DNA of 64,000 bases, from the NCBI GenBank assembly GCA_004010535.1, contig RQYE01000001.1, forward strand, positions 310,001-374,000, given 5' to 3'. The DNA comes from Coriobacteriales bacterium OH1046. Lineage in GTDB: Bacteria > Actinomycetota > Coriobacteriia > Coriobacteriales > Atopobiaceae. Below are positions 12,637-62,626 of this stretch, one piece after another. Below the pieces are notes generated by a model that made no database searches, had not been told where the DNA came from, and saw only the letters and a program-made list of their open reading frames with translations. Position 1 is the stretch's first letter. Every line of letters begins with the position of its first letter. A program made the translations under genes and the position numbers.

Positions 12637-12665
12637 TCGCAGAGCAGCCGCTCTCGCCCCCCCCC

Positions 12666-12730
12666 GCGTTCCCCCAGCACACCTCCCAGCGACTGTACAG
12701 TCACCGTATGCTGTGCTGGCCAAACGTGCC
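12666..12730. repeat. Palindromic repeat family 1, copy A
   Basis: Imperfect palindrome of about 65 bp with outer arms CCAGCACA / TGTGCTGG around the perfect core GACTGTACAGTC (12691-12702). It lies just downstream of folA and ends with GGCCAAACGTGCC, shared with other copies. Its centre is 95 bp from that of copy B. Confidence 0.85.
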
Positions 12731-12760
12731 TGAATACGTCGCCAAGAGGACCCTGATTTT

Positions 12761-12825
12761 GCTTTTCTCCAGCATGTCCCTTGGCGACTGTACCGTCACC
12801 GGGAAGTGTATTGGTCAAACGTGCC
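12761..12825. repeat. Palindromic repeat family 1, copy B
   Basis: Same element as copy A, core GACTGTACCGTC (12786-12797) between CCAGCATGTCCC and TTGGTCAAACGTGCC. The minus-strand DUF559-like gene reads into this copy: its last residues (GTFDQYTSR) and stop codon are repeat sequence. Confidence 0.85.
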
Positions 12826-13833
12826 GCATGGCTTTTTAGGGTGCAGAGGCGCCGTCCACTCCGATCTGTAATGGTGGCTCGGATTGAAGAGGACGCCCTG
12901 CAGCCTCATCCGCATCGAGATCTCATCGTCATCGGGAAGCGGCAGCCTGAATCCGAGCGCCCGCGCGAGCTGCTCCGCCTTGCGATCGAACCTCCAGTAA
13001 TCGCTTGCCTCCGCGCCCGTGCAAACGATGACCTTCTTCCCCAAGGCAGCGAGAATCCCACGTCGGTTCTTATCGGCATCAGAATCGGCCTTCGTGCCAT
13101 GGTCGGCATCACCATCGTATTCGAAGATGACCTCCGCGCCGCGCCACATCATGTCGGCCGAAAAATACTCCTGCTCGGTAAGGCGACGATCACCCCCGTT
13201 CACATCGACACGCGCGTTGCACTCGGGTTTGGCAAAGTCGTAGCCACCGTGCTCCCCGGGCAATGTGAGCGCAAGATTGCACTGCGTCTCACGTGGAGAG
13301 ACGGATCCATCGGACATGAAGGCAAGCGCCTCCCTCGCTCTTCCCATGCCCGATACGCCATGGCAAGCGTCGATGAATGATCGCAGGGCCGCAACGTTTG
13401 TGAGCGGCTTGTGGGATGTGAATCCGCGCTTGGCGGCGTCGTTGAGCGAATAGCCCCCGGTTAGCTCCATTCCGAGCTCGGCAAGCGCGATGCGCGAGTT
13501 CCGGCGCATATGCGCCGCCTGTAGGAAGCAGAGCTCCGGCGATGAGACGAGCAACTGGTCGGAAAGACGGAAGAAGGAGCTAGCGGGAAGACAGGCGGAG
13601 CAAACGTGCGCGCGGATGCGCTTCGACGCATGCACCATCTGCTTGCCCGGCACGAGGAAATCGACCTTGGAGGAAAGCGTGCGGATATTCTCCGGAATCA
13701 TGGATAGCACGGCTTTCTCCGTGGTCACGCAGTCGAGCAGGCCCGATACGATGATCCTCGATGGGAATGGCTGCTCGCCCGACCCGACGGCACGCCAGAA
13801 GTTGATTGCGGTAGCGTGGCTTAGGCACAGCAT
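12796..13833 (-). CDS. DUF559 / AbiEi-like putative endonuclease-fold protein
   Basis: A 345-residue protein of unproven function. The N-terminal half (VDFLVPGKQM..., then SFFRLSDQLLVSSPELCF) resembles AbiEi/DUF559-associated regions. The C-terminal part carries an EYDGDADH motif (residues 238-245) followed by DKNRRGILAALGKKVIV, the E-x-D ... K/R spacing of Vsr/DUF559 PD-(D/E)xK folds. A strong ribosome site (AGGAGGAGTCC) precedes ATG 13833. Its C-terminus is encoded by repeat copy B, and repeats lie on both sides. It is a clear paralogue of the gene at 59302-60531: both share LVP, SPEL, SPxE and YDG motifs in order. A defence or mobile-element role is inferred only. Confidence 0.65.
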   Translation of the reverse strand: MLCLSHATAINFWRAVGSGEQPFPSRIIVSGLLDCVTTEKAVLSMIPENIRTLSSKVDFLVPGKQMVHASKRIRAHVCSACLPASSFFRLSDQLLVSSPELCFLQAAHMRRNSRIALAELGMELTGGYSLNDAAKRGFTSHKPLTNVAALRSFIDACHGVSGMGRAREALAFMSDGSVSPRETQCNLALTLPGEHGGYDFAKPECNARVDVNGGDRRLTEQEYFSADMMWRGAEVIFEYDGDADHGTKADSDADKNRRGILAALGKKVIVCTGAEASDYWRFDRKAEQLARALGFRLPLPDDDEISMRMRLQGVLFNPSHHYRSEWTAPLHPKKPCGTFDQYTSR

Positions 13834-13837
13834 GGAC

Positions 13838-13858
13838 TCCTCCTCCTGTGATGGAGGA
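13838..13858 (-). promoter_or_regulatory. Hairpin covering the ribosome site of the DUF559-like gene
   Basis: On the minus strand TCCTCC-ATCACA-GGAGGA forms a perfect 6-bp hairpin whose right arm is the Shine-Dalgarno itself. This could hold down translation until opened by a protein or a coupled event. The pairing is visible; the regulatory role is inferred. Confidence 0.45.
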
Positions 13859-14083
13859 CACCGTAACATGGCAGTACCGCTACCATCTCAACAATCTGGT
13901 TCGGACCATCAGGTGGACGACAGCTTTATGGCAGATATCTTTCAAGAAATACTCGATGCCAATGTCAACGCTTTGCTTCCCATCTGGGCAGGAGACAACA
14001 CCCTGCGCAGATCCTTTACGGAAACGGTTCGCGTTTCGTGGAGGCTGCTTTGCATAAAACCTACCTGCAAGGAAGACATGTTC

Positions 14084-14129
14084 GGCAACGACTGTACAGT
14101 CGCCAGATGCCCTGCTGGCCAAACGCAGC
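14084..14129. repeat. Palindromic repeat family 1, copy C (left arm missing)
   Basis: Core GACTGTACAGTC (14090-14101) followed by CGCCAGATGCCCTGCTGGCC and AAACGCAGC. The left arm found in other copies is not recognisable, so this is a partial copy. Its centre is 95 bp from that of copy D. Confidence 0.75.
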
Positions 14130-14158
14130 GAGAAGGTCCTTCTGAAAGGCCCCGATTC

Positions 14159-14224
14159 GGCATTTTCCCAGCATGTCCCTTGGCGACTGTACCGTCACCA
14201 CGACCCTTGCTGGTCAAATATGCC
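14159..14224. repeat. Palindromic repeat family 1, copy D
   Basis: GGCATTTTCCCAGCATGTCC, then the core GACTGTACCGTC (14185-14196) and CTTGCTGGTCAAATATGCC. Nearly identical to copy B in the left half. Confidence 0.8.
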
Positions 14225-14254
14225 ACGATAGTTCTTTAGGAGAGCTTCCGATCC

Positions 14255-14320
14255 GGCATTTCCCCAGCACATCTCCTCGTGACTGCACAGTCGCCAAGGG
14301 ACATGCTGGGGAAACGCAGC
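14255..14320. repeat. Palindromic repeat family 1, copy E
   Basis: GGCATTTCCCCAGCACATCT, core GACTGCACAGTC (14281-14292), then GCCAAGGGACATGCTGGGGA and AACGCAGC. Its centre lies 96 bp from that of copy D, and it ends 11 bp before the stop of the lipoprotein gene. Confidence 0.8.
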
Positions 14321-39102: not shown

Positions 39103-39176
39103 TAACATACACTTTACAGACCTTCCTGCGGTTTCTTCTAGGAGAAAGCCCAGTTGAGCTCATGGAGTGTATGTTA
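39103..39176. repeat. 74-bp palindromic repeat, copy 1
   Basis: Begins TAACATACACTTTA and ends AGTGTATGTTA; the middle TTTCTTCTAGGAGAAA can form an inner hairpin. It is the same length and pattern as three other copies (45549, 59231, 60561). It lies 17 bp after the end of the SDR gene. Confidence 0.9.
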
Positions 39177-45548: not shown

Positions 45549-45622
45549 TAACATGCACTTCAGGAGCTTTCCTGCAGTTTCTCCTGAAAGAAATCCCAGT
45601 TGTGCTCATAGCGTGTATGTTA
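45549..45622. repeat. 74-bp palindromic repeat, copy 2
   Basis: TAACATGCACTT ... GTGTATGTTA, 74 bp, with inner TTTCTCCTGAAAGAAA. Located 88 bp after the end of the flavoprotein gene. Confidence 0.88.
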
Positions 45623-55456: not shown

Positions 55457-55483
55457 AGCAACGGAACGCACATACGGCACGGC

Positions 55484-55531
55484 AAACGGCACGGCGCCCG
55501 GGATACCCGCATCCCGGGCGCCGTGCCGTTT
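55484..55531. terminator. Bidirectional terminator with 21-bp perfect stem
   Basis: Arms 55484-55504 and 55511-55531 pair perfectly over 21 bp with an ACCCGC loop and AAA/TTT at the base. It lies between convergent genes, so it can end both transcripts. Confidence 0.9.
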
Positions 55532-55552
55532 GATAGTCCCTTTTGCCCGCGC

Positions 55553-57146: not shown

Positions 57147-59117
57147 TCACATCAGCGAGCAGATGTTCTTGGCGAACTCCACGGGGTCATCGACGGGAAG
57201 TCCCTCCACGAGCAGCGCCTGGTCATAGAGGAGGTTCGCATAGAGGGCGAGCTTATCGTCCTCCCCCGCCGCGTGCACGGCGACGAGCTTGGCGAAGACC
57301 GGGTGCTGGGCATTGAGCTCGAGCACGCGCTCGGCCTTGGGCATCATGCCGGCATCGGGGCCCTTCATCATCACGCGTTCCATCTCGAGCGAGATCGGAC
57401 CCTGCGCGGTGATGCACGCAGGCGCATCGGTGAGGTTGGCCGAGACGCGAACCGCCGAGACCTTCTCCCCGAGCGCCTTCACCATAGCTTCGAACAACGC
57501 CTCGTTCTCCTTGGTCGACTGCTCAGCGGCGGACTTCTCCTCCTCGGTGGCAAGGTCGAGATCGGCCGTGGCGACGTTGGCGAGCTCGAGCTCGCGCGCG
57601 TCTTCGACGGGGCTCTCGCCCTCGGCCGCAGCGGTCACGGGGCGGTAGCTGCGCATGGTCTGGAGCATGAACTCGTCGATATCCTGCGTGCAGAGCAGCA
57701 CGTCGTACCCGCGCCCGAGGGCGCTCGTCACGGCGGGAAGCTTCCCGAGCCGCTCGCGCGAATCTCCTGCGGCATAGAGGATCTTGTCCTGCCCCTCCTT
57801 CATCGCCGAGGCGTACTCGCCGAGCGTGCGCCACCTCTCCTCGCGCGCGGACCAGAAGAGCAGCAGGTCGGCAAGGTCGCCTGCCTTGGCACCGTAGCTC
57901 TCGTAGATGCCGAACTTGAGCCCGCGTCCGAAGTTCTCGAAGAACGTCTCGTAGACCGTACGCTCATCGGCGAGCATGGCAGCGAGCTCGTCGTGGATCT
58001 TGCGCTCCACGCGTTTGGCGATGGCGCGCAGCTGGCGGTTCTGCTGCAGCGTCTCGCGTGAGATGTTGAGGGCGACATCCGGCGAGTCCACCACGCCGCG
58101 CACGAAGTTGTAGTAGTCGGGCAGCAGGTCGGAGCACTTCTCCTGGATGAGCACGTTCGACGAGTAGAGTGCGAGGCCCTTCTCGTAGTCTTTGCTGTAG
58201 AGGTCGAAAGGCGCACGACCGGGGATGAAGAGCAGCACGTCGTAGGAGAGCGCCCCCTCGGCATGGAACGAGATGGTGCGCGCGGGAGCCTCCCAATCGT
58301 GGAAGGTGGCCTTGTAGAACTCGTCGTAGTCGGTCTGCTCAACCTCCGAGCTGCGCTTCTTCCAGATGGGCGTCATGGAGTTGAGCGTCTCGAGTTCCTG
58401 GTACTGCTCGTATTGCGGCGTGTAGTCATCGCCCGCATCATCCGGCTTGGGCAGCTGGCGACTCTTGGTGGCCATCATCTGGACCGGATGGCGCACGTAG
58501 TTGGAGTAGCGCTTCACGAGGTCGCGCAGGCCCCATTCCGAGAGGAACTTGTCGAGATCCTCGTCCTCGCCGCTCGCGCGCAAGAACAGCGTGACATCGG
58601 TGCCGTGATCGGCCGCGCCGTCGCGCTCGCCCGCCTTGGCCGCCTCGATGGTGTAGCCCCGGATGCCATCGGACTCCCACGCGAAGGCTTGGTCGGCGCC
58701 GAAAGCGCGGCTCACCACGCGCACGCGGGAGGCGACCATGAAGCTCGAGTAGAAACCCACGCCGAACTGGCCGATGATGTCGATATCCGCTCCCTGGTGC
58801 TCGGCATTCTCATCCTTGAAGGCCTCGGAGCCGGAGTGCGCGATGGTACCGAGGTTCTTGTCGAGCTCGGACTCGGTCATGCCGATGCCGTTATCGCTCA
58901 CGGTGATGGTGCGGGCGTCCTTATCGAAGGAGAGGCGGATGGCCAGATCCTCCTCGCCCAACTGAACCGAGGGATCGGTGAGCGCCTTGAACGAGAGTTT
59001 GTCGATGGCGTCGCTCGCATTGGAGACGAGCTCGCGCAGGAAGATCTCACGATTGGTGTAGATGGAGTTGATCATGAGGTCGAGGAGTTTCTTGCTCTCG
59101 GTCTTGAATTGGCGCAT
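57147..59117 (-). CDS. htpG: Hsp90 chaperone
   Basis: A 656-residue HtpG. The GHKL ATPase domain shows RELVSNASDAIDKL, DNGIGMT and GQFGVGFYSSFMV; the C-terminal dimerisation domain follows. AAGGAAG lies upstream of the ATG. It assists folding under stress. It stands alone here, 74-bp repeat copy 3 lying about 114 bp upstream. Confidence 0.96.
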   Translation of the reverse strand: MRQFKTESKKLLDLMINSIYTNREIFLRELVSNASDAIDKLSFKALTDPSVQLGEEDLAIRLSFDKDARTITVSDNGIGMTESELDKNLGTIAHSGSEAFKDENAEHQGADIDIIGQFGVGFYSSFMVASRVRVVSRAFGADQAFAWESDGIRGYTIEAAKAGERDGAADHGTDVTLFLRASGEDEDLDKFLSEWGLRDLVKRYSNYVRHPVQMMATKSRQLPKPDDAGDDYTPQYEQYQELETLNSMTPIWKKRSSEVEQTDYDEFYKATFHDWEAPARTISFHAEGALSYDVLLFIPGRAPFDLYSKDYEKGLALYSSNVLIQEKCSDLLPDYYNFVRGVVDSPDVALNISRETLQQNRQLRAIAKRVERKIHDELAAMLADERTVYETFFENFGRGLKFGIYESYGAKAGDLADLLLFWSAREERWRTLGEYASAMKEGQDKILYAAGDSRERLGKLPAVTSALGRGYDVLLCTQDIDEFMLQTMRSYRPVTAAAEGESPVEDARELELANVATADLDLATEEEKSAAEQSTKENEALFEAMVKALGEKVSAVRVSANLTDAPACITAQGPISLEMERVMMKGPDAGMMPKAERVLELNAQHPVFAKLVAVHAAGEDDKLALYANLLYDQALLVEGLPVDDPVEFAKNICSLM

Positions 59118-59230
59118 GGTCGATCGCTTCCTTCCGGGCTGTTGCGGGCGAAACCTGCCGCTCGATAGATGACATGGATGCTTATACCCAAGTTGGACGG
59201 TTCGGATACCCCAGCACCGTGCGCTTGCAA

Positions 59231-59304
59231 TAGCATACACTCCAGGGGCTTTCCTGCTGTTTTTTCTAGAAGAAAGGCCCGTTGAGCTTCTAAAGTGTAT
59301 GTTA
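59231..59304. repeat. 74-bp palindromic repeat, copy 3
   Basis: TAGCATACACT ... AGTGTATGTTA, 74 bp, inner TTTTTTCTAGAAGAAA. Its last bases (TTA at 59302-59304) are the TAA stop of the DUF559-like gene. Confidence 0.9.
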
Positions 59305-60531
59305 ATCGCTCGCAACCGACACGATCCTAGGGTCACCGTCCTCCTCCTCGAACCTCACAACCGCCTCAGCAAGCGAGATACCGAGCTCCCGCGCATCCAC
59401 AATCCCACGCTTGCCGCGCAGGCCGGGCATGAGCGAGCAGATAAGGCCATGGCGCGCCCGGGAGATCCGTTCGTTTCCCAATGCAACCCGCTGAGCGAGC
59501 AGATCGTGCCGCCCCGCACGCTCGATCGCCTCGACCACCTGCCCCATCGCCCGTTCGAAACCGCCCCGATCGAGCAGATCCTCCTTGGTGATGGAGAAGA
59601 CCGTGAGTCCGAGCAGCATAAGGTCGCGGTCCCTGCGCTTGTCCGCGACGATGCGCGCGCGGGAGTCGGCCATCGCTTCGGCGAACTCACGCGCCAGGGC
59701 AGCGTTTCCCGGATCCCTGTCCAACGCGACCGCAGCACGGGCGATCTCGGACAGGCGGAAATGGTCCTCGCCGTCGTAGTTCAGGCCCACATTCGTTCCT
59801 CGGAACATGATGTCGGGCACACGCGAGCCCGCATCGCTCAAGCGGGAGAGGCGCTCGCCCAGCTCCTTGCGCGGGTTGAGGTCGATAGGACCCAGATCGA
59901 GCCCCAGCTTATCCACCAGCAATACTGCAAGGGCGGCAACGAGCGCCTCCGCAGGCGACCAGGCGTTCTCGGCAATGAGATCGATGGCCGCGAGCGCCTG
60001 CCGGGATCCGCGAACCTCATGGGCTTCCCGCGCGTATGCCCTCAGCTTGGCAACGGTAGTCACCGGCGCGATACCGTAGACCGCATCGCCATTGCGCGGG
60101 TTTTCCGCCGCGCGGGAGAAGCACCCGCAGAGCTCCATTCCCACCAGCACATGGTCGATGGGATCCATCGCACGCGCAAGCTCGATGAACAGGAGTTCAG
60201 GGCAGCTCACGGCGATACCGTTGCCCACATCGACGAACGACCCTTTGGGAAGGGCCCCCGAGACAACCGTGCTCTTGGTACCGGCCACCTGCAAACGCAG
60301 GTCCTTTTCGGGTACGAGGACATCGAGCGGACGGGTTGGCGAGAACTCCCCCGCCGTGCCGAGGAAGGCGAGCTGCTCGGCGATCCTCTTGCGCGTCCAC
60401 CGGTGCATCGGCCCCGGATCGGGCGGCAGCATAGCGCAGCGCCTTGCCAAGCCGACTTTGATCTTGCCGCACCTGATGGCACGGATTATGTGAAGCGCGG
60501 TGAGCGAACCGAGGGTCAGACGCACGGGCAT
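59302..60531 (-). CDS. DUF559 / AbiEi-like protein, paralogue of the 12796-13833 gene
   Basis: About 409 residues. PLDVLVPEKDLRL and SFVDVGNGIAVSCPELLF match the N-terminal half of the paralogue; SPAEALVAALAVLLV and PDIMFRGTNVGLNYDGEDHF, then DKRRDRDLMLLGLTVFSI, match its nuclease-like part. The acidic residue before YDG is Asn here (NYDG not EYDG), so nuclease activity may be lost or changed. The gene is exactly bracketed by 74-bp repeats, one supplying the stop codon. Starts at ATG 60549 or GTG 60525 are alternatives. Function unknown. Confidence 0.6.
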   Translation of the reverse strand: MPVRLTLGSLTALHIIRAIRCGKIKVGLARRCAMLPPDPGPMHRWTRKRIAEQLAFLGTAGEFSPTRPLDVLVPEKDLRLQVAGTKSTVVSGALPKGSFVDVGNGIAVSCPELLFIELARAMDPIDHVLVGMELCGCFSRAAENPRNGDAVYGIAPVTTVAKLRAYAREAHEVRGSRQALAAIDLIAENAWSPAEALVAALAVLLVDKLGLDLGPIDLNPRKELGERLSRLSDAGSRVPDIMFRGTNVGLNYDGEDHFRLSEIARAAVALDRDPGNAALAREFAEAMADSRARIVADKRRDRDLMLLGLTVFSITKEDLLDRGGFERAMGQVVEAIERAGRHDLLAQRVALGNERISRARHGLICSLMPGLRGKRGIVDARELGISLAEAVVRFEEEDGDPRIVSVASD

Positions 60532-60560
60532 CCCTTCCAGGAAGATCATTCTCCTTCAAA

Positions 60561-60634
60561 TAACATACACTTTAAGATGACAACTGCGGCTTCTCCTAGA
60601 AGAAACCGCAGGATAGCCGGTAATGTGTATGTTA
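60561..60634. repeat. 74-bp palindromic repeat, copy 4
   Basis: TAACATACACTTTA ... TGTGTATGTTA, 74 bp, inner TTCTCCTAGAAGAAAC. Located 11 bp upstream of the earliest start of the DUF559-like gene and 41 bp after the PaaK-like stop. Confidence 0.9.
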
Positions 60635-60675
60635 ATTTCCAACGAGAAGGTCTCGGGGTGCCGCCCGCCGCCTCC

Positions 60676-61917
60676 CTACTCGTAACGCTCGTCGAAGACG
60701 CGCCTGGTCTTCTTCTCGCTCCTAGGAAGCAGTCCCAGCTCGACGATCTTGACGAGCGGCGTGAAGCCTATCCTGTGCCTGATACGCCGCGCCACGTGCC
60801 TGCGCAGATCCTCCCAGTCCACCGAGCCGTTGGTCTCCACGTAGAGGCGCATGGTGTCGCGCCCATCGAGGTGCGAGAGGCGGATCTGGTACTCGCTCGA
60901 GAGCTCCGGGAAGCTGGCGAGGATCTCCTCGATCTGGGCCGGGAAGACGTTGACGCCGTGGATCTTCATCATGTCGTCGGAACGGCCCGTGATGGTATCG
61001 ATGCGCGGATGCTCGTTGTGCCCGCAGGGGCAATCGCCGGGGATGATGCGGGAGAGGTCGTGGGTGCGGAAGCGGATGAGCGGCGCGCCCTCCTTGACGA
61101 GCGTGGTGAGCACGATCTCGCCCCGCTCGCCATCGGGGAGGACCTCGCCCGTATCCGGATCGATGATCTCGAGGAACACGTAGTCGCTCCACACGTGCAT
61201 GCCGTGGCCATGCTGGCAGTTGATGCCGATGCCGGGGCCGTACACCTCGGTGAGGCCGTAGATGTCGTAATACTCCACGCTTAGGGCATCGATGATGCGT
61301 TTGCGGATCTTCTCGCCCGCGCGTTCGGAGCCGGTGATGAGCTTCCTGAGCCTGATCCGGTCGCGCAAGCCGCGTTTCTCGATCTCCTCGGCGAGGAGGA
61401 GCGCATAGCTCGCGGTGGCCGTGAGCACCGTTGACTGCATGTCGATCATGAACTGGAGCTGCTTCTCGGTGTTGCCGGGACCCATGGGGATGGCCATGGC
61501 GCCGAGCAGCTCGCACCCCGCCTGGAAGCCGATGCCGGCGGTCCAGAGGCCGTAGCCCGGCGTGATCTGGATGCGATCCTCGGATGTGACGCCGGCATAC
61601 TCGTAGCAGCGGGCGAACTGGGCAGCCCAATCGTCCACATCCCTCCGGGTGTAGGGGATGATGACCGGCGTGCCGGTGGTACCGCTCGAGGAGTGGATGC
61701 GCACGATCTCGCGATCGGGAACGGCGGAGAGTCCCAGCGGATAGGCCTCGCGCAGATCCTCTTTCTCGCAGAACGGGAGAGCACGGAAATCTTCGACGCT
61801 GCCGACGCCCGTGATACCGGCTTCCCGTAGGCGCTTCCCATAGAAATGGTTCGAGTCGAGCAAGCGCTTGACCTGAGTATCGACCTGCTTGAGCTGGATC
61901 TCGTTGATCTGCATCAT
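60676..61917 (-). CDS. Phenylacetate-CoA ligase-type enzyme
   Basis: A 413-residue ANL-superfamily ligase that makes a CoA thioester from an aryl acid with ATP. AMP-binding motif HSSSGTTGTPVI and YDIYGLTEVYGPG are present, with the C-terminal VNVFPAQIEEIL lid. With IorAB next door it should act on aryl acids such as phenyl- or indoleacetate from amino acid breakdown, or run in reverse to conserve ATP. ATG 61917 or 61914 both fit AAGGAATGC. Confidence 0.88.
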   Translation of the reverse strand: MMQINEIQLKQVDTQVKRLLDSNHFYGKRLREAGITGVGSVEDFRALPFCEKEDLREAYPLGLSAVPDREIVRIHSSSGTTGTPVIIPYTRRDVDDWAAQFARCYEYAGVTSEDRIQITPGYGLWTAGIGFQAGCELLGAMAIPMGPGNTEKQLQFMIDMQSTVLTATASYALLLAEEIEKRGLRDRIRLRKLITGSERAGEKIRKRIIDALSVEYYDIYGLTEVYGPGIGINCQHGHGMHVWSDYVFLEIIDPDTGEVLPDGERGEIVLTTLVKEGAPLIRFRTHDLSRIIPGDCPCGHNEHPRIDTITGRSDDMMKIHGVNVFPAQIEEILASFPELSSEYQIRLSHLDGRDTMRLYVETNGSVDWEDLRRHVARRIRHRIGFTPLVKIVELGLLPRSEKKTRRVFDERYE

Positions 61918-61963
61918 GCATTCCTTTCGTTGCGGCGTGACAGGGGGCGTGACGAGGGGACAG

Positions 61964-62032
61964 GCGTGACGGGGGGACAGGTCACTTGTCACGCTTTGAC
62001 AGCGTGACAAGTGACCTGTCCCCCCGTCACGC
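61964..62032. repeat. GTGACA-type inverted repeat, copy 2 (32-bp perfect arms)
   Basis: Arms 61964-61995 and 62001-62032 match perfectly over 32 bp, loop TTGAC. Outer GTGACAGGGGGCGTGAC sequences extend the symmetry outward. Related to 41059-41155 through GTGACAAG-GACCTGTC. The iorB stop (62039-62041) lies in the outer arm. Confidence 0.95.
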
Positions 62033-62038
62033 CCCCTG

Positions 62039-62626
62039 TCACGCGCATGCTGTCACGGGCGCCCACTCGAGCGCACGGAGGTTGAGCTCGTGGAAACGTT
62101 CGGGGAGGCGCATCCTTATGGCGGCGCGGATATCGTCGACGGCGAGCGAAAGCGCACCCGTGCGCACGGCGGCACCGAGCAGCACCACGTTCAGGCACTT
62201 CTCCGAGCCGAGATCGGCAGCAGCGGCATCGGCATCCACCACGATGGGATTCTCTACATACCCCTGCAGGTACGCCATGATGGCCTCGAGATCGTACGCG
62301 GGACCGCCGATTGTGGCGCTCACCGGGATGATGGGCCGCGAGCTCACGACTACTGTGCCCCCCGCACGCAGGTACGCCAGCTGGCGCACGGCTTCGGCAG
62401 GCTCGAAGGCGATGATCAAGTCCGCGCGTCCGCAGCCGATGAGCGGGGAAGCCGCGCCGTCGCCGATGCGCACATGGGAAAAGACGCTGCCCCCGCGCTG
62501 CGCCATGCCGATGGTCTCCGCCGTCTTGACCGGAAGGCCCCTCGCCATGGCTGCCGCAGCGAGGAGCTGGGAGGCGAGGACGGTGCCCTGACCGCCCACA
62601 CCGCAGAGGACGATGTTATCGCTCAC
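62039..62626 (-). CDS. iorB: Indolepyruvate:ferredoxin oxidoreductase, beta subunit
   Basis: A 195-residue gamma-type domain subunit. NIVLCGVGGQGTVLASQLL and the TAETIGMAQRGGSVFSHVRIG motif are diagnostic. It starts with GTG overlapping the iorA stop (GTGA). The enzyme oxidatively decarboxylates aryl 2-oxo acids to aryl-CoA with reduced ferredoxin. The C-terminus (VTACA) runs into a palindromic repeat. Confidence 0.94.
   Translation of the reverse strand: MSDNIVLCGVGGQGTVLASQLLAAAAMARGLPVKTAETIGMAQRGGSVFSHVRIGDGAASPLIGCGRADLIIAFEPAEAVRQLAYLRAGGTVVVSSRPIIPVSATIGGPAYDLEAIMAYLQGYVENPIVVDADAAAADLGSEKCLNVVLLGAAVRTGALSLAVDDIRAAIRMRLPERFHELNLRALEWAPVTACA

Follow-up and report, generated by a model that had tools for sequence, protein, structure and literature searches.

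A gene that lies exactly between two copies of one palindrome, and takes its stop codon from one of them, raises the question of whether gene and palindromes form a single unit and, if so, what the encoded protein might do to its own borders. Here, we address this question in a window of 64,000 nucleotides from Coriobacteriales bacterium OH1046 (G000:C1:310001-374000; genome G000 comprises 2.38 Mb in 19 contigs) and in related genomes, which are mostly draft or metagenome assemblies.

A gene framed by palindromes

An imperfect palindrome of 74 bp occurs in four copies in the window, each with terminal arms of 10-14 bp (TAACATACACTTTA) and an inner stem. The strands of these copies were assigned from their internal asymmetry. 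A second, distant member of the gene family is also present in the window. The features are as follows.

12656..12825, no strand: downstream repeats of the second family member, two units spaced about 95 bp, which overlap the end of the gene
12796..13869, minus strand: second, distant family member, 357 aa, with its own, different repeats on both sides
14086..14318, no strand: upstream repeats of the second family member, three units about 95 bp apart
39103..39176, minus strand: palindrome copy 1, solo, found by end-motif search; syntenic counterpart in G001
45549..45622, minus strand: palindrome copy 2, solo, found by end-motif search; also in G001, where the subsequent 4 kb of the window are absent
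59231..59304, minus strand: palindrome copy 3, downstream boundary of the cassette gene; its first three minus-strand bases (59304-59302) are the gene's TAA stop
59302..60549, minus strand: cassette gene, 415 aa (409 aa from the probable start at 60531), with an AbiEi-like N-terminal half and a Vsr/EDxHD-like C-terminal half
60561..60634, plus strand: palindrome copy 4, upstream boundary of the cassette gene, inverted relative to copy 3

Copies 3 and 4 (74 nt each) are mutually 73% complementary. The first-pass annotation had described two 74-bp palindromes framing the gene, with copy 3 contributing the stop codon, and both points were confirmed. The distance of 11 bases that it gave between copy 4 and the gene holds for the upstream ATG at 60549; the alignment of homologs indicates that the ATG at 60531 is more likely the real start, and the gap would then be 29 bases. 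The TAACATACACTTTA end occurs eight times in the window with at most three mismatches (two ends for each of four copies), compared with a mean of 0.35 and a maximum of 2 in shuffled sequences. RNA self-folding of all four copies exceeds that of shuffles (z -2.7 to -6.7), and single-stranded DNA folding is clearly above shuffles only for copies 1 (z -3.5) and 4 (z -6.0), with copies 2 and 3 at z about -1.5. The core CSCAG or a variant thereof is found on both strands of the window copies, at position 46-48 of the 74. An Rfam scan of 58900-60900 returned a chance match only.

The cassette gene has htpG on one side and a PaaK-like AMP-binding gene on the other. Within the same genus, the corresponding position in G001 is occupied by the gene and both palindromes, which show 86% identity to G000, and G003 has an unrelated gene there. 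An empty htpG-PaaK site was absent among these two same-genus relatives in which htpG was found; htpG was not found at the threshold used in G002, G004, G006, G008, and G017. G012 also has a family member immediately upstream of htpG, oriented the other way. Between htpG and the left palindrome, G001 has about 400 bp (L002 1010-1420; G001:C97) that the window lacks.

Other inverted repeats were observed in the window. The spacer separating the PaaK-like gene from the one after it contains two nested near-perfect inverted repeats at 61935-62044 (33 nt, 100%; 30 nt, 97%) made of GTGACAGG/CCTGTCAC-like words, and a GTGACAGG-CCTGTCAC palindrome resembling them is found in another genus (L058 2950-2993). 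At 55483-55532, a perfect 22-nt inverted repeat with a 6-nt loop is perhaps a terminator-like hairpin.

Matched and private repeats across the gene family

Framing by matched repeats is a rule of this gene family, and the rule is weaker in distant relatives. With framing defined as a flank-to-flank score of at least 20 (the largest score among control ORFs was 19), matching flank repeats on both sides were found in 37 of 71 testable homologs vs none of 165 neighbouring control ORFs; the 71 derive from 73 collected loci, two of which lie at contig ends and were left out. The repeat pair was undetected in 34/71, mostly distant homologs. Among the 64 homologs that could be placed by identity, 29/39 at 34% or above were framed, compared with 4/25 below 34%. 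In a separate set of close homologs, the genomes of which overlap with those of the 71, matching repeats on both sides were found in 14/17 (L041 on 28 bp only), with L044, L050, and L051 negative or weak; among more distant homologs, 7/20 are clearly framed. Olsenella sp. An270 (G095) has 10 framed genes among 12 intact members, a count made with widened flank windows and without a control set. The family has so far been found only in Coriobacteriia, mostly Atopobiaceae, in a scan of genome contigs that required one of two conserved peptides and could miss members outside this class. A tblastn search of plasmid and phage records gave no family match, which leaves carriage on such elements without evidence.

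Each gene or subfamily has a private repeat sequence, and repeats are unrelated below 50% protein identity. Across 550 non-syntenic pairs, from which flank-sharing pairs had been removed by a hand-made list, the repeat score never exceeded 18 below 50% protein identity and reached up to 39 at 50-60%. The rank correlation between repeat score and protein identity was weak (0.13), but only 4 of 500 permutations gave a value as high.

Terminal inverted repeats (score of at least 10) were found in 48/72 repeat copies vs 37/1440 control segments. The core CSCAGKT was matched by regular expression in 13 of 28 collapsed repeat families (shuffle mean 1.2, largest 6), CSCAG having first been spotted by eye in other families and the regular-expression and position tests being partly after the fact; an unbiased 7-mer search of the 28 families gave 19 vs 15-17 in shuffles, no clear excess. 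Each of ten An270 solos (151-155 bp) has CSCAG at its centre, at about positions 73-77 of either one strand or its complement, and identity among them is 0.76 at the ends and 0.44 in the nearly random interior (0.38 when shuffled). The simplest reading is that selection acts on the arms and the centre rather than on the filling.

A hairpin word, CGTTCTTCTCGCC / GGCGAGAAGAAC, is frequent in Olsenella intergenic regions and often edges palindromic elements (L234-L247, at the intergenic site of the An270 solo comparison, and L113, L117, L119, and L123). This word may be another repeat family or a preferred landing sequence.

Solo palindromes and rearrangement

The window palindrome family was detected with a palindrome model in 5 of 40 genomes (G000, G001, G002, G004, and G008). 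In G008, a homolog of 40% identity is framed by two copies of that genome's own version of the palindrome. In An270, one element family occurs at about 11 places, and one of these is 324 bp away from a family gene with a frameshift. Copy numbers are about 4 to 12 in the genomes with solos that were surveyed, and repeat lengths are about 70-155 bp. Solo copies were found for neither the L040 family nor the G125 element, and dispersal of solos as a general rule was rejected on this ground.

Comparison of G000 and G001 revealed changes at the palindromes themselves. Copies 1 and 2 and a further solo on G000:C17, which is common to G001 and absent from a diverged interval in G003, have the same orientation in both genomes. 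Copy 3 is inverted (82% identity inverted, 69% direct), copy 4 is ambiguous (73/73), and the G001 version of copy 3 is 91% identical, in inverted orientation, to solo copy 1. Furthermore, G001 has a 9-kb stretch between two copies where G000 has a single copy. Together with the missing 4 kb next to copy 2, the inversion and the 9-kb stretch indicate that these palindromic elements are places of rearrangement. G001:C2 has two large, similar genes in tandem, one of which has a palindrome copy on each side (L052 5168-5251 and 7927-8010), as though the palindromes had served in the duplication.

Presence, absence, and replacement at shared sites

Depending on the genome, one and the same junction has a cassette, another cassette in its place, only one remaining palindrome, or no element. 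We surveyed the region upstream of argH in 21 genomes (20 plus L121). A family gene is found between argG and argH in six (G056, G119, G128, G131, G064, and L121) and directly upstream of argH in six others (G087, G103, G122, G007, G134, and G015), in which argG was outside the stretch compared and, for G015, the contig ends. A lone palindrome is present in two (G095 and G125), and the site is empty in five (G074, G137, G112, G009, and G020). In G116, the interval upstream of argH is 190 bp and a family gene lies beyond argG, and G108 has 3.1 kb upstream of argH without a family gene.

Among the 11 filled genomes, G015 being left out, ArgH is 86-99% identical throughout the 55 pairs. Cassette identity in the same pairs falls into two ranges, 89-99% (4 pairs) and 42-65% (51 pairs); for example, G087 and G103 share 93.7% in ArgH and 91.2% in the cassette, and G056 and G087 share 95.7% and 46.5%, respectively. 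Fast divergence of one resident cassette was considered and rejected, since cassette identity is bimodal despite similar ArgH identities, a pattern that argues for replacement. About eight kinds of cassettes are distributed at this site, with three in forward and eight in reverse orientation among the 11 genomes.

A similar search at the site of an An270 solo covered 15 genomes. The site is empty in G074, G103, and G122 (7, 8, and 27 bp vs 334 bp in An270), other palindromic elements were recognized by eye in G137, G056, G128, G116, and G087, a short hairpin is present in G119, and about 0.8 kb of other sequence is found in G131 and G108; the left flank was unaligned in G125, G007, G134, and G112. 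Neither a target-site duplication nor an exact insertion boundary was definable at the compared sites. At the best-resolved one, empty and filled versions differ by 70-110 bp per side beyond the element itself, and it is such extra sequence that blurs the boundaries. The idea of a mobile cassette in the first-pass annotation was largely right, as the gene and its flanking repeats behave as a cassette in their states and swapping at argH. The empty or one-repeat site that it proposed to seek exists upstream of argH, where empty, solo, and filled forms were all found, but not at htpG-PaaK.

Predicted domains of the encoded protein

The window protein was assigned to no family by Pfam, NCBIfam, or PADLOC. 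Its earlier label as DUF559-like has no Pfam support in this protein or in 65 members of the family: 17 Pfam families were matched at E of 1 or below by these homologs, without DUF559 or any transposase model, and the family with the most members among them was AbiEi_1 (3/65, best E 0.057). PADLOC gave four weak single-member matches (best E 0.015), and PHROGs gave only weak, scattered, single-member matches.

The structural comparisons point to a Vsr-like fold instead. An AlphaFold2 model built from 16 homologs has a pLDDT of 84.9. In a second look with VIA, residues about 191-340 matched I-Bth0305I (Z 8.6, rmsd 3.0, 97 aligned residues) and Vsr (Z 8.4 and 8.0), with unrelated entries close beneath at 7.9 and lower; Foldseek on the models gave nothing below E 0.001, with Vsr at about 1. 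The first half, modelled separately, has a pLDDT of 94, and for residues 1-188 the top three VIA matches all belong to the AbiEi family (6y8q, Z 7.5; 1zel, 5.0; 8an5, 4.8), compared with 3.0 for the next, unrelated entry. The three are the AbiEi-type antitoxins AbiEi, Rv2827c, and MenA1. The matched part of AbiEi is its C-terminal (antitoxicity) domain and not the winged helix, which appears to be missing from the modelled protein; recognition of the palindrome arms by the AbiEi-like half is thus without direct support.

Six residues are invariant in the 65 members (E133, E195, D240, N251, Y252, and D253), and H257 (at least 90%), R300, R302, and D318 are near-invariant. This conservation is as expected of a nuclease centre and suggests a catalytic role. 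The models fit an AbiEi-like domain joined to a Vsr/EDxHD-like nuclease fold, with putative nuclease activity.

A model for the cassette and its alternatives

The gene with its matched repeat pair, the private repeats, the solos elsewhere in some genomes, and the gain, loss, and swapping seen at shared junctions are best explained, we are inclined to believe, by a single-gene mobile cassette whose own nuclease acts on the palindromes, in a manner like RAYTs and REPINs with an unrelated enzyme. From these patterns we infer binding, cutting, and movement. The protein would recognize its own palindrome through the arms, probably with a dimer placed over the dyad, and may nick or cut at or near the conserved central CSCAG core. 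Repair or strand transfer could then copy, invert, remove, or disperse palindromes; loss of the gene would leave one palindrome, or a rival cassette would replace the resident. The protein may also act in trans on palindromes, as a RAYT does on its REPINs. In PMC3943268 an EDxHD enzyme, I-Bth0305I, is reported to dimerize on a target of nearly 60 bp, a precedent for a long symmetric site.

A more specific proposal can be offered only tentatively. Such cassettes would form a class of elements that set their own bounds, where the work of a transposase, integrase, or HUH enzyme falls to a Vsr/EDxHD-type nuclease with an AbiEi-like domain. This nuclease would process large palindromes at a CSCAG core on the dyad, spread them, and compete with sister cassettes for the same intergenic sites, with a private palindrome code in each lineage and some ten or more gene-repeat pairs per genome.

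Alternatively, the gene may be cargo, namely, a defence, toxin-antitoxin-like, or repair gene swapped at fixed intergenic sites by ordinary homologous recombination, with an enzyme that is inactive on the repeats and repeats that are passive handles or scars. The AbiEi-like first half and the many divergent paralogs per genome, both typical of accessory loci, and the possibility that replacement upstream of argH runs via conserved flanks are all consistent with this explanation. However, exchange handles should be common to the cassettes, and the repeats are private to each gene; solo palindromes disperse elsewhere, and the PADLOC matches among the 65 members are few and weak. We consider the cargo explanation unlikely.

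Somewhat less likely again is homing, in which a free-standing EDxHD gene would cut cassette-free or foreign-cassette alleles of conserved junctions upstream of htpG and argH and be copied in by repair, with the palindromes aiding recognition or resolution. I-Bth0305I is the best structural neighbour of the nuclease half and its dimeric binding to a long target would suit such a role, different cassettes repeatedly occupy the same junction, and in G012 a member is next to htpG on its upstream side, with the orientation reversed. A homing gene, however, normally destroys its own target upon insertion, whereas the palindromes, the likely targets here, remain at the two ends of the cassette and as solos. 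Several orientations and many different sites are also seen.

It is improbable that the gene is an ordinary one, inherited vertically, with the palindromes as its operators or terminators. The position of copy 4 just upstream of the start and the conserved placement of gene and repeats in G000 and G001 would agree with this, as would the autoregulation of AbiEi antitoxins via inverted repeats that is described in PMC7319586. Nevertheless, a matched repeat is also found downstream, solos occur at unrelated genes, units are present or absent and are swapped, and the region 59000-60900 contains no promoter-like site and one terminator-like site that is not above shuffles. Finally, the first-pass suggestion of a gene captured by chance between two generic miniature elements is scarcely credible. 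The layout of the window alone, with two of four copies bracketing the gene, gives that impression, but in other genera the repeat pairs around the homologs are unrelated and gene-specific, and the G008 homolog is framed by its own palindrome version.

Relationship to known systems

The proposed single-gene cassette acting on its own palindromes has its closest parallel in REPIN-RAYT systems, for which PMC3116915 describes single-copy enzyme genes with palindromic repeats beside them, a separate repeat class for every gene, and dispersed non-autonomous copies. In both, the enzyme gene has palindromic repeats of its own on its flanks, and repeats are dispersed elsewhere for some of the families studied here and not for others. 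Unlike RAYTs, the cassette protein is no Y1/HUH transposase: the 65 members have no transposase match, and the modelled nuclease half resembles Vsr and I-Bth0305I. The cassette repeats, about 70-155 bp in length, are also few in number in the genomes with solos.

EDxHD homing enzymes and Vsr function in phage intron homing or mismatch repair. The putative cassette nuclease resembles I-Bth0305I and Vsr in the predicted fold of residues about 191-340 and has invariant acidic residues and a near-invariant histidine that may correspond to their active site, but is preceded by an AbiEi-like half and encoded by a gene bounded by private palindromes. Likewise, residues 1-188 resemble the fold of the type IV antitoxins AbiEi, Rv2827c, and MenA1, but the winged helix is apparently absent, a nuclease half follows, and at the window locus no cognate nucleotidyltransferase toxin gene lies beside the gene, the neighbours of which encode HtpG and the AMP-binding PaaK-like protein. 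As with MITEs and insertion sequences, the elements are short, have terminal inverted repeats, are dispersed, and vary in presence, but no transposase was found in the cassette and no target-site duplication was recognized. In the open-access literature we found no description of a nuclease gene with private palindromes, and one may exist elsewhere. The element looks like an apparently undescribed kind of tiny mobile cassette.

REPINs are tied to one type of enzyme, the HUH RAYTs, and here the same tie would be seen with an unrelated, nuclease-like family. Since each genome has about a dozen distinct pairs of gene and repeat, the co-evolution of enzyme and repeat is directly testable, and the family provides a set of candidate nucleases, each of which may recognize a different long palindrome. 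Such cassettes would account for many unannotated intergenic palindromes and for a large unnamed gene family in the Coriobacteriia of the gut and rumen.
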